Positions 8,972 to 60,426 of a stretch of DNA of 64,000 nucleotides are shown here, in pieces. Origin of the DNA: Hericium rajendrae (taxonomy: Eukaryota; Basidiomycota; Agaricomycetes; Russulales; Hericiaceae); the NCBI GenBank assembly GCA_033439255.1, contig CM065890.1:1054001-1118000 (forward strand), given 5' to 3'. The notes below the pieces were generated by a model, which saw nothing but the letters and a program-made list of their open reading frames with translations, had not been told where the DNA came from and made no database searches. Numbering within the stretch: position 1 is the stretch's first letter; each line of letters opens with the position of its first letter. The position numbers were made by a program, and so were the translations under genes.

Positions 8972-10627
8972 ATGGACAAGTCCCTTGACGAGGTGCGTTC
9001 AGACCCATTTTTGGCGTCGCCACAACGTGTCACTAATCGTCTTTGTCTTTGTTCTCTGTAGATCATCACCTCCAACAAGCCCAAGGGCGTTCGCCGTACG
9101 TCTAGCCGCCGAACGGGCAGACAAGAAATCCTCGGAAAGCCGACCACCAGCCCGGTCGCCCGTGCGCGCATCAATAACCCTATTCCCGGTGGGGCTAAGG
9201 CTGCCGCCGCCTCTCCCCAGCCTGCTGACAAAATCATGGTTTCCAACCTGCCGCTGGATGTGAATGAGGTTCAAGTCAAGGTTAGTACTTGTTGTGACCG
9301 CCGTGTCTTCTAGTCGTTGATGCTGACGAATCGTGCTACTTTCAGGAACTCTTCCACACCACTGTCGGACCCCTCCGCGAAGTCACCCTCCACTACGACG
9401 CGAATGGCCGTTCCAAGGGCGTCGCCTCCGTCCACTTCCAGAGGAGAGGAGATGGTACCAAGGCGTACCAGCAGTACAACAACCGGCTCATCGATGGAAG
9501 TTAGTATTCGACTGCTTTCGCCTCTTTCAACCTTCTGCTTCTAGCTCGTTGCTTCATCTTGAGCGGGTGCGCGGCACTCGCAATGCGTGGATCGCCGGAA
9601 ATCGTTGCTTTCTACCTCGAGGGTTCCCGAACTTGGACGCCGTTGCTCATACTACATCCCGGATGACGTTCACCTCGAGGCTGCTATTCTTAGCACGACG
9701 GGTGTATAGGGTCCGACCTGGTCAATCCGCCTTCCTCTTCGTGATGGCGTGATCGCAGGGCATATCTGCTCTGCGGTCTTCTAGCAACGCCCTTGTTCAC
9801 AGGTCTGATCAACCTTGTGACTGGTGGCCGTCCGCTGAAGATTAGACTATGATACTGTCAGGCTCCCTACCGATCGGTTGGTCGAGCCGAGTATAGGATT
9901 GGGGTCGAGGGATAGTGGGACGTCGATGGTTTGTGCCTTGGGGAGGGTTTTGGGAGTTGAAGAATGACTGGCTGTTCGACCGCCTTCCAGTGGGAGTGTC
10001 GAGCACTGGGATGAACTTCGTCTCGCAAGCGCAATATCGGGTCGCCGAAACCTGGACAGGATAGGAAAGCAACGAAGGACTGGTATTCAATTTTGGATTG
10101 GTTTCACGCTGATTGCCACGCATGTCGTTTCATTTCTTCATTTGCCTCACCGCCCTACCATGAACACCCGACTGACCAACTTCTCGTCTGCTCTCTCGCC
10201 ACATCACACTTCCGACTCCGCCATTCATAGAACGCCCCATGAAGATTGAAGTCATTGTTGACCCCGCTCGCCTCCCCCCCGCTCCGTCGCTCGCTTCCCG
10301 CGTGGCACCTGCCGCAGAGGCCGCTGCCAATGGAACTCAAGGCTCCAGGTCCGTGTTCCAAGGAAATGCCGGTCGCGGCATTCACTCAAGTGCCATCTTT
10401 CGTTACAGACGCCCTGGCGGTACTCGTGGAGGAGGAGTAGGACGCGGTGGACGACGCCCTCGTCGCAGCGAAAGGCCCCCGAAAACCGTGGCCGATCTCG
10501 ATGCTGAAATGGAGGTTCGTAGATTTGGGTAACGCTCTTGTCCGGCGATATTCTGACGTTCTTATGTCATTAGGACTACACTGCCACCAGCAATGGTCCC
10601 GCTGCGCCCGCCGCCACCACGGCTTAG
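8972..10627 (+). CDS. YRA1: mRNA export adaptor Yra1/ALYREF, RRM protein
   Basis: Yra1 couples transcription and splicing to nuclear export by handing mRNA to the Mex67-Mtr2 receptor as part of TREX. Six exons (8972..8992, 9062..9280, 9346..9499, 10231..10348, 10409..10514, 10574..10627) give 223 residues with all phases agreeing. The order is a basic N-terminal arm, one RRM (IMVSNLPLDVNEVQVKELF as RNP2 region, GRSKGVASVHF as RNP1), then IDGKRPMKIEVIVD closing the domain. An RGG-like box (GGTRGGGVGRGGRRPRR) and the C-terminal TVADLDAEMEDY helix, the second conserved Mex67/Sub2-binding element of REF proteins, follow. Four introns are 59-69 nt, but the third is 731 nt and splits the RRM between IDG and RPMKIE. 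Both ends of that intron are fixed by protein continuity. Confidence 0.95.
9500..10230 (+). other. Unusually long third intron of YRA1 (731 nt)
   Basis: The donor is GTTAGT at 9500 and the acceptor is CATTCATAG ending at 10230. The frame restored is IDG-K-RPMKIE. A CTGAC branch-like sequence lies some 50-60 nt before the acceptor. A normal-looking alternative acceptor, TTCTAG, ends at 9544. Using it would make a 45-nt intron but read into an in-frame stop, so it would yield a truncated product. Another acceptor, TTCACAG, ends at 9802 just before a segment reading LVTGGRPLKI. The other introns of the gene are 59-69 nt. Saccharomyces YRA1 is known for an exceptionally long, inefficiently spliced autoregulatory intron, so retained regulation is a reasonable inference. 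Confidence 0.8.
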
Positions 10628-23297: not shown

Positions 23298-26200
23298 TCA
23301 CGCGCGGAGGAGCCAGCCGACGTCGAGCCCGGTCATAGTGCGCATGCCCCCGGGATAGCATGCGTTACTCTCCTTGAGCAGCATCGCGAGCCGCTGGCAG
23401 ATCTCCATCGGGTAGAGCAGCTGCTCGGCCTGTGGGAAGCCCGGGTATTTGCCGAGCAGGCTGTCGGCAGAGATGAGCCATGGAAGATGTCATAGATATG
23501 AAAGGAAGGGAAGACGTACGAGGGCAGATCGGTGTAGGCCGTTGATGGGCCGATGGTCTTGTACAGCACCTTCGCCGCCTGGACGACGCCGCTCTGCGGG
23601 ATGGAGTAGTACGTGGGCGCGGCATATGAGAGGCGCATGCTCGGCTTGAACAGCCAGATCTGCGAAGCAGTTCCAGTTAGGATGAATGCATCGTGCGAAG
23701 AAGAATTCCACGCACCAGTAACCGCGGCCGCTCTTCTTCCTCATCCAGGATGACGAAACGGTAGGTGGCATGGGCCGAGGCAAGCTCCGCCATGTCTTCC
23801 ACTATGAACGCCGAAAGCGGGATACGCAGCGGTCTGTTCACATACATGAGCATATCGCATGAGATCAGGAAGATAGGACACGTACTCAGCAGCTGGGCTC
23901 ACAGGCCGCAAAGCGTACTTCACCAGCCTATATGCAGTAGTGCGTTCGCCCGACTCGGTCGTATACTCCTGACACCGCCCTGCGAACGAGCCGCAGATGC
24001 AGCGCACGGTGCGGAACTCTTCGCCATGCTGCACGACAAGAGTCAGTACAGTTCGCATAGAATGCTTCGAAAATGAAATAAAACAGGAAGAGAAATGAAG
24101 GAAATGGATGTCTCCTCGCGCGTAGCTCCCGCAGACACGGACCTCAGAAACGAGAGTTGTTAGACGAGCAACCGCCGAAGCGTTAATCTCGGACGATTTG
24201 TATCAGCCATATACTGCCGCCCCATCCGGCCACCACCACGCCCAAACCGGGCCAAAACCTGCAAGGGCTTCGACCCGGCTCGAGCGCAGACAGACCGGAG
24301 GGGCAAGCAGCCGCTGGTGGAATCCCAGCGTCGGCCTTCTTACCGTCCTGAAGCAATAACCAAACAAGAACGAAGAGAAAGAGTAGAATAGAACACGGCA
24401 CGCACCTTCGGCTGCTCCGCAACCCATAAATTGCTCCTCATTACAACACGCCCCTCAAACAGCACATAGCTCCCGCCGACGAGCGCCTGGCCCTCTCTCG
24501 GCCAGAAGCCGCTCCCGTGCTGAGCGACCTGCGCAGACAGCTGCTGGTCCGCATGGCACATCCACGCCTCGACGAGCTCCGCCCAGTGCTCGCTCGGTAG
24601 GTCGTCGTACCGCGTGACACGCGCTCCCTGCACCAGTGGCAGCGAGCACGATGCGCAGATGAACGACGTCGGAGCCGCAGTTGTCAGCTGGGCTGCGTCG
24701 AGCAGTGGGGTGGGGACATGTGGGGGCGGAGGGGAGGGTGCGGGGAGCTTGACCTCGTAGTGTGTGCCTTGCACTCTGATTTGTTGTGGGCCTGGCGTGA
24801 CGGGTGCGGGGAGGGGAAGGGGTGACGAGGTTACAGCGCCGCTGTGAAGGACGAGAGATGTGGGCAATGATGGCGGGGGAGAGGATGAAGAGGAAGGTGC
24901 TGAGGATGAAGGAACTTCAGCTTCAAGGTTCACGCCAGCGACGCCGCCCTTAACATTAAGGAACGCAATAACATGCCGTAGGCTCTCATGGTGCTCTGCG
25001 ACGTAGTGGATCGACAATTCTGTAATATAGTCTCAGTAACCCAGTGAGACAGGTAGCAAAAGAGTACACGCACCAACTGGCGTCGAGCGTCGACCACTTG
25101 ATGAAGTTGGGCGAGAACTCGGTCGACTCGACTTCGCCGAACGCGAACCTCGATCCAAGGAGCTCGCAGAAAGTAGCCAATCAAAGCCTGGTGCGGACAT
25201 GCTCCGCGAACGAAACTTACCCGACAGAGTCCGACGGACCTGGGGAGGCGTCGCCGCAGGCACAGGGGCAGGGGCAGGCGGAGGCGGAGGTGCAGCTTCG
25301 CGCACAAACTCCGGGAGTGTAAGAAGCGTGTGTGGGTCTGGCTGAGGCAGAAGAGCACTGGGTACGGATTCCCGCATGAACTCGGGGAGAGAGAGTAAGG
25401 CGTCGGGGTCCTTCAGCTTGGACGTCTGGAAGGAGGCGTCTTGTGAATGCATGCGTCCAGCGTCTGAGTGTTCGACCAGTTTCGAGACGAAAGCTTGTCG
25501 CTAATGCCAGAAACATCATGAGGCTTCCACACAGTTGTAGAACTGAGAATACAAACTCACCTTCTGCAGATCCCGACGCCGTGCCTTTTCGAGCTGACCC
25601 TTCATCCCACCTTCCAGCACAACCGTCTGGTCAGACAAACGCCTTTCCGACGCACGTCCAATCATGTCAACAATACGATCCAGGTCTCGCTCCTTCTCTT
25701 TCAGCTTCGCCATCCCATCCTCGCCCCGAAGCCGTGCGCGCTCGAGCTCCGCACGCTTCTTGGACTTAAGTTCGACGCGCTGATTAAGCAGCTGGGGCGC
25801 GACGTCGTACAGGCGGTCGATCGCCATCGTGACCGTGTCGAGGTCAAGGCGCATCTTTTCGCTGATGTGTGGAGATGTTTTGGACATGGACGCCTGCGCA
25901 GGCACCTTGGCCTCCGACGGGATGGTCCCAAAGTCATATTCATACTTTGGCGGGCCCTCGAACTCGTAGTCAGCGGGGTCATACTCTGGCGGGAGCTGAT
26001 CCTGCGACACACGCGGCGGCAGAAGAGCTTCAGCGCGTTCGCGGCAGAGGCGAAGCACTGTTTCAAGATTAGCGTCGATGCTACTCCACAGGAGTGCCTG
26101 CTCTACAGCCTGGACCGGCGGGATATCTGCGCTTTCCGAGCGAGAGCGCGCGTGATGCTGCTGCACTTGGAAGTCGCTGAGCTGGCGACTGAGTGCATTG

Positions 26201-58925: not shown

Positions 58926-59530
58926 CTACTTGGCACCCGCGCTCGAGAACTGCATATCCAAGTCAGTGACATGCTATGATACAGTTGAGGAAGGCAACGT
59001 ACTTTTGTTACTGACTTAGTACCTTCAGAGATAGCGTGCTTGGATAGCTCTCCTGGAAGGATAAGGCGGACGGCAGTCTGGATCTCCCGAGATGAGATGG
59101 TCGACTTCTTAGAGTATGCGGCGAGCTCTGAAGACACGAAGGTCAGCATGGCATGTTGAAAGTAGGGCAAAGACATAGACGCACTGGAAGCTTCTGTCGC
59201 GATACGCTCGAAGATGTCGTTGACAAAGGAGTTAAGGATGGCCATCGCCTTGTTGGAGATACCCGTGTCCGGGTGCACCTGCTTCAACACTACGAGTTCG
59301 ATAAGCAACCGAACACGAGAGCACAAAACAAAAAGCGTACCCTTGTAGATGTAAGACGAGTACGTCTCCTTCCTCACTTTGCGGCGCTTCTTCTTCCCCT
59401 CCTCGCCCGCCGCTGCGGCAGTCTTCGAAGTCTTCTTCGCCGCCTTGGACCCCTCGGTGGTCTTAGCGGGCGCCTTCGAGGCGGTCGAGGCGGGGGCTTT
59501 GCCAGCAGTAGAAGCAGGTTTGGGTGCCAT
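58926..59530 (-). CDS. HTB1: Histone H2B
   Basis: Core nucleosome histone that pairs with H2A. The ATG at 59530 opens the basic Ala/Lys tail ([34 protein letters not shown]). The histone fold follows: [57 protein letters not shown] and [19 protein letters not shown]. The Lys in AVTK/SVTK near the end is the expected monoubiquitination site region. Three introns interrupt the fold; the last exon, 58955..58926, encodes FSSAGAK. The tail is slightly longer than in yeast. It shares its promoter with H2A. Confidence 0.97.
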
Positions 59531-59853: not shown

Positions 59854-60426
59854 ATGTCTGGAAAGGGCGGCAAAGCTGGCAAGTCTGGAGGAAAGACCAC
59901 CGCTGAGGGTGGCAAGGCGCAGTCCCGTTCGGCGAAGGCGGGTCTCCAGTTCCCTGTTGGCCGTGTCCACAGGCTCTTGAAGCGTGGCAACTACGCTCAG
60001 CGTGTCGGCGCTGGTGCACCTGGTACGTCTTGTGAAATCTGTCAGTTGGCGGATTGGCTGACTTCGCGGCTTAGTTTACCTCGCCGCTGTCCTTGAGTAC
60101 CTTGCTGCGGAGATTCTCGAGTTGGCCGGAAACGCCGCTCGCGACAACAAGAAACAGCGTATCGTTCCTCGTCACCTGCAGCTTGCCATCAGGAACGACG
60201 AAGAGTACGTTCAACTTGCTTATCGTGTTCTATCATGTTCTCATCGCTTCCTCAGGTTGAACAAGCTTCTGGGCGACGTTGTCATCTCGCAAGGTGGTGT
60301 TGTGCCATTCATCAACCCTGAGGTACGTTGTCGCATCTCTGGACTCTGAGATGGTTGGCTGATCTTCGTTCACAGCTCCTGCCCAGCAAGACGCAAAAGG
60401 GCAAGAAGGAGAGTCAGGAGGTTTAG
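59854..60426 (+). CDS. HTA1: Histone H2A with C-terminal SQEV
   Basis: Core histone. Four exons (59854..60022, 60075..60204, 60256..60322, 60376..60426) join in phase. The sequence runs [89 protein letters not shown]. The end, KKESQEV, keeps the S-Q-acidic-hydrophobic motif phosphorylated by Mec1/Tel1 kinases after DNA breaks, so this canonical H2A also serves as H2A.X, as is usual in fungi. It is divergent from H2B. Confidence 0.98.

Follow-up and report, generated by a model that had tools for sequence, protein, structure and literature searches.

A 731-nt intron in a Yra1/ALYREF homologue of Hericium rajendrae and its position relative to the long intron of yeast YRA1

In Saccharomyces cerevisiae the YRA1 gene carries one very long intron within the RNA recognition motif (RRM), and the same is seen in a gene of this family in the basidiomycete Hericium rajendrae. 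This raises the question of whether the basidiomycete intron may control the level of the encoded protein, and whether it could be the yeast intron by descent. We addressed both points within one window, meaning the whole stretch of 64,000 nucleotides that was analysed; all coordinates are positions in this window.

The gene and the length of its third intron

The gene is located at 8972–10627 on the plus strand and comprises 6 coding exons (8972–8992, 9062–9280, 9346–9499, 10231–10348, 10409–10514 and 10574–10627 including the stop codon) encoding 223 residues. These are separated by intron 1 (8993–9061, 69 nt), intron 2 (9281–9345, 65 nt, phase 0, at the K80/E81 junction), the long intron 3 (9500–10230, 731 nt, phase 1, donor GTTAGT, acceptor CATAG), intron 4 (10349–10408, 60 nt) and intron 5 (10515–10573, 59 nt). 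For all introns GT/GC-AG pairs were tried at up to 8 bases around the initial boundary guesses. Nine splice combinations gave a frame of 200–240 residues, and all nine included the intron 9500–10230. The 223-residue model was picked among them using splice consensus and alignment.

When the predicted protein was compared with solved structures using phmmer, THO complex subunit 4 (ALYREF, chain 7znk_L) came out top of 28 matches with an E-value of 6.7e-23. Pfam identified RRM_1 with 50.2 bits (cut-off 20.7) and a C-terminal FoP_duplication with 35.7 bits (cut-off 24.6). At its two ends yeast Yra1 aligns with MDKSLDEII at the N-terminus and DLDAEMEDY at the C-terminus of this protein, and the C-terminal box pattern DLDxEMxDY is found together with an RG-rich linker, as in REF export adaptors. 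Both comparisons rely on a provisional yeast sequence, whose last 30 residues match PDB 5sup_G. The N- and C-terminal boxes of Yra1/ALYREF (REF) adaptors bind helicase. The structure match and the two Pfam domains bear out the identity proposed in the first-pass annotation: judged by its sequence, the gene is a Yra1/ALYREF homologue.

Intron 3 breaks the RRM between LIDG and KRPMK. Both ends are pinned by the protein, as claimed before, since LIDG/KRPMKIEV aligns with LDG/RPMNIQLV of ALYREF and the FoP_duplication match follows downstream. The alignment shows zero missing residues, and the interior of the intron is therefore dispensable for the main protein.

To place the 731 nt among the introns of the window we relied on a gene finder written for this analysis and trained on the 64-kb window alone, which yielded 21 gene models with 114 introns. 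The median predicted intron length was 57 nt (n=114). Only 4 of the 114 exceeded 150 nt (1125, 480, 277 and 159 nt), and without these the median was 56 nt and the 95th percentile 87 nt (n=110). Three of the four were judged by eye to be mispredictions: the 1125-nt intron fuses two genes, the 480-nt intron skips a good exon of an apparent homoserine dehydrogenase, and the 159-nt intron consists of open coding sequence of an apparent transporter. The 277-nt intron (24019–24295, minus strand), in a large gene, is the sole other candidate for a long intron among the predictions. Intron 3 itself is missed by the gene finder, because its length model ends YRA1 at 9504; under a permissive setting, discarded since it merged genes, an intron of 731 nt was listed in round one and gone later. 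With 731 nt against 59–69 nt for its siblings and a window median of 57 nt, the exceptional length noted at first pass holds. Judged within this window, intron 3 alone is clearly long. Elsewhere in the window we noticed a divergent gene pair (58926–59530 on the minus and 59854–60426 on the plus strand), whose predicted proteins resemble, by eye, histones H2B and H2A.

With 114 introns in 28,389 coding bases, the gene models average about 4 per kb of coding sequence. This agrees with the description of basidiomycetes, in the available part of PMC3488318, as rich in introns that are exclusively short. As an exception among basidiomycetes, a mean intron length of 426 bp is given for the smut fungus Pseudozyma hubeiensis in the accessible text of PMC8476143.

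Splice signals and contents of intron 3

For the assessment of splice signals 108 controls were used, i.e. the 114 predicted introns minus the 2 predicted YRA1 introns and minus the 4 introns above 150 nt. In the main scoring the matrices excluded YRA1 and each control being scored. The combined score of intron 3 exceeded that of 23 of the 108 controls. When a 62-nt branch window was allowed for intron 3 alone, 35 controls scored lower, and 31 when the same window was allowed for all introns. All its parts are under the median, with lower values in 28 (donor), 38 (acceptor) and 27 (branch) of the 108 controls. By the same left-out matrices introns 1, 2, 4 and 5 outscore 79, 107, 59 and 93 controls; the strong signals of intron 2 include TGCTGAC. 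An earlier scoring had put intron 3 above 16 of the 108 controls, or 32 with a distant branch site allowed. That scoring and the percentiles for single sites given below are partly circular, because their matrices included YRA1 introns 1 and 2.

The best branch-site candidate, GACTGAC at 10170–10176 on the plus strand, lies 55 nt before the last intron base. This is unusually far: a branch at a distance of at least 50 nt was found in 1 of the 67 short introns with a best branch match above 4. Among the five introns of the gene, intron 3 has the poorest splice signals, but within the window they are only mildly weak. Read from these signals, the sequence suggests that intron 3 may be spliced inefficiently.

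A hidden gene or non-coding RNA inside intron 3 was considered and rejected, as coding potential, Rfam and tRNA scans all speak against it. No Rfam family matched the window at gathering score. With E-values of up to 10 the region 9400–10330 gave a single match (E 0.86), on the minus strand in exon 4, and none inside the intron. A tRNA scan of the window found none. Coding bias, assessed on each strand in 13 windows of 100 nt, reached at best +0.009 per base in the intron, compared to 0.012–0.137 in four YRA1 exons. A minus-strand ORF of 93 residues (9842–10123) was discarded, the windows covering it being without coding bias.

A zipper stem or other special RNA structure was ruled out by folding of shuffled sequences: 20 of 20 and 57 of 60 shuffles were as stable as intron 3 or more so, giving no structure excess (z = +2.4 and +1.4 in the two shuffle runs). 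Locally, 4 of 68 windows had z below -2 (-2.5 to -4.5), and all four contain a 12-bp hairpin at 9751–9778 on the plus strand (about -20 kcal/mol). A 40-nt fold as stable as the hairpin region occurred in 6 of 60 whole-intron shuffles. The hairpin sits directly upstream of two internal acceptors, 9784 and 9802. We also noticed a perfect 11-nt inverted repeat (9602–9612 and 10065–10075) which spans most of the intron.

An origin of intron 3 from a transposon or a duplication was likewise set aside. The window holds no substantial repeat of it, blastn against the rest of the window returning two matches only (17 and 19 nt, E 0.47), and the similarity of intronic DNA to exon 4 is no better than chance (equalled by 155 of 300 shuffles).

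Retention and a possible control function

If intron 3 is retained, translation runs into an in-frame TAG at 9502–9504 (plus strand), giving a 132-residue product ending in NNRLIDGS. Introns 4 and 5 sit 3' of this stop. The use of internal acceptors has a similar outcome: for all 28 internal AGs at least 40 nt past the donor, the predicted products have 132–192 residues and lose the normal C-terminus. The first-pass annotation had singled out one of them, at 9544 on the plus strand. This acceptor exists and would produce a short intron (45 nt) with a premature stop after a tail of 40 residues. It is a poor site, with acceptor and branch score at the 9th percentile (partly circular matrices), and is too weak to carry any weight.

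We consider it evenly balanced whether intron 3 is an inefficiently spliced, NMD-coupled control intron for the Yra1 level, at a site different from that in yeast. Its removal would then be slow and incomplete and would act as a control point. After retention, or splicing to an internal acceptor, translation would terminate immediately or some dozens of codons later; the stop-bearing mRNA would be degraded by NMD or yield a truncated RRM protein. High Yra1 would lead to more retention and thus close a negative feedback. For such a role argue the length of the intron, the lowest splice score of the five, the retention stop with introns 4 and 5 downstream, and the literature on other fungi. Counting against it are the mildness of the signal weakness (23–35 of 108 controls lower), the lack of a structure excess, the size result from Cryptococcus and the mechanism in Yarrowia, both discussed below, and the long introns of some basidiomycetes.

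The regulatory reading plausibly fits what is reported on YRA1 introns. The yeast intron has an unusual branch site according to the parts of PMC4818039 at hand, and the candidate branch of intron 3 is unusually far from the acceptor. A stop upon retention is shared by the two introns, the yeast side being our own inference. Excess Yra1 is described as harmful in yeast in the same source (PMC4818039). According to the available sections of PMC2864733 the yeast YRA1 pre-mRNA is degraded via Edc3 and evades NMD. In hemiascomycetes, YRA1 homologues have a long intron with a divergent branch site in almost all species, as stated in the accessible part of PMC2911113. Retention of the 850-bp intron 1 of Yarrowia lipolytica YRA1 is visible in NMD mutants (excerpts of PMC2911113 and PMC6351623), and despite the long intron the yeast decay mechanism is probably not conserved there (PMC2911113, same excerpts). 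The YRA1 gene of Saccharomycopsis schoenii has introns measuring 850 and 748 bp according to the text available from PMC13148404. These two ascomycetes thus resemble H. rajendrae in having long YRA1 introns.

Closer by relationship is Cryptococcus neoformans, a basidiomycete like H. rajendrae. Retention in its YRA1 gene (CNG03240) rises upon deletion of UPF1; the available text of PMC5006051 leaves the size and position of the retained intron unstated. In the same excerpts NMD-controlled retention is not predicted by intron size, and 98% of ORF retention events are not raised by UPF1 loss (PMC5006051). As far as these excerpts go, length alone therefore says little. In the parts of PMC11913375 at hand, C. 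neoformans introns above 500 nt are spliced worse than those of 40–60, 60–100 and 100–500 nt, and introns below 40 nt are also poorly spliced.

A further parallel is offered by srp2/SRSF5, a different gene from YRA1 that also encodes an RNA-binding protein and has an exceptionally long, NMD-coupled intron in fungi. The retained intron is among the longest 1% in Aspergillus and 3% in Neurospora (accessible text of PMC4379411). Its position is conserved with animals, whereas that of intron 3 differs from yeast's. Judging from the sources in the form available, it is already in print that long fungal introns are tied to NMD-coupled control of RNA-binding proteins, and so is YRA1 intron retention in a basidiomycete. 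A literature search combining ALYREF, intron and basidiomycete found no paper, and the available portion of a Ustilago helicase paper (PMC12511879) contains nothing on a YRA1 intron.

Intron 3 could instead be an ordinary intron that grew neutrally, is spliced adequately and has no regulatory role. We take this as a serious alternative, if somewhat short of probable. It would account for an intron in which Rfam, tRNA, coding and overall folding scans gave no clear signal, whose splice signals are inside the normal range, and which shows no recognisable insertion, repeat or duplication beyond weak matches. It also agrees with the C. neoformans result that size does not predict NMD-controlled retention (PMC5006051, as excerpted). 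Against neutral growth speaks that the one clearly long intron in this window falls into a gene with long or regulated introns in other fungi.

An improbable alternative concerns the candidate exon 9803–9852 (plus strand) behind the internal acceptor CACAG (9802), which reads SLINLVTGGRPLKIRL in frame and then a stop. Used as an alternative terminal exon it would supply GGRPLKIRL as the end of the RRM, a peptide within this frame resembling the true RRM end GKRPMKIEV. The resulting short Yra1 would lose the RG-rich and the C-terminal helicase-binding parts and could serve as a poison isoform or as a functional competitor. Shuffles matched the RRM end equally well or better in 2 of 300 and 26 of 3000 cases, and in 17 of 3000 when a usable acceptor was demanded. 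The acceptor is a fair one, at the 71st percentile, while its sum with the poor branch falls to the 18th (partly circular matrices). In addition the exon has no coding bias, and likeness to exon 4 DNA is at chance (155 of 300). Since it was spotted post hoc, we treat it as a lead only.

Position relative to the yeast YRA1 intron

According to the legend in PMC2864733, the yeast intron is bounded by nucleotides 285 and 1052, and the stop codon ends at 1447. Taking 1–285 as exon 1 and 1052–1447 as exon 2 makes a coding sequence of 681 bases or 227 codons. When the boundaries are taken the other way, the bases do not add up to complete codons; the yeast intron therefore lies after codon 95 in phase 0. 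The yeast Yra1 protein sequence used for the alignment is mostly provisional; its length agrees with that legend. R95/E96 of yeast pair with K80/E81 of H. rajendrae in a gap-free stretch. Intron 2, preceded by 240 coding bases and in phase 0, is located exactly at this yeast-aligned site. Intron 3 is preceded by 394 coding bases, which puts it about 51 codons downstream of that site and towards the RRM's end; it is in phase 1, and the gene has five introns in all. Since sites and phases differ, intron 3 and the long yeast intron are not one intron, as read from this provisional yeast protein. The site common to intron 2 and the yeast intron probably marks an old intron, judging from this alignment.

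The idea that both long introns come from one ancient regulatory intron, attractive in that each gene has a single long intron within its RRM and that long YRA1 introns occur across hemiascomycetes (PMC2911113, as excerpted), is highly improbable, because yeast boundary 285 aligns with the short intron 2 in the same phase, and conservation of the yeast intron structure is listed as Saccharomycetaceae in the table seen from PMC4937481. The position contradicts such descent unless there is an error in the provisional yeast sequence, or unless the long site is ancestral and was lost in Saccharomyces. Descent of intron 3 from the yeast regulatory intron thus finds no backing here. Of the two options offered at first pass for intron-based autoregulation, an age beyond the split of Asco- and Basidiomycota or two separate origins, the positions lean to independent or shifting use. 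The difference in site is an addition of the present analysis and is absent from the cited literature, in the parts available.

Under the control-intron reading, intron 3 would accordingly be a functional parallel of the yeast YRA1 intron and not its positional homologue. It is conceivable, though rather doubtful, that YRA1 has no fixed regulatory intron: in Saccharomyces it would reside at the site equivalent to K80/E81, while in H. rajendrae the intron at that site has stayed short with strong signals and the same NMD-coupled control would have moved to another intron. If such turnover is true, autoregulation itself would be what is selected while the intron site changes. For factors whose excess does harm, fungi apparently have a recurrent means of setting the level, namely a long and poorly spliced intron in the gene of an RNA-binding protein. 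If the control site differs between the phyla, YRA1 would make a clean case for distinguishing inherited from rebuilt feedback circuits.
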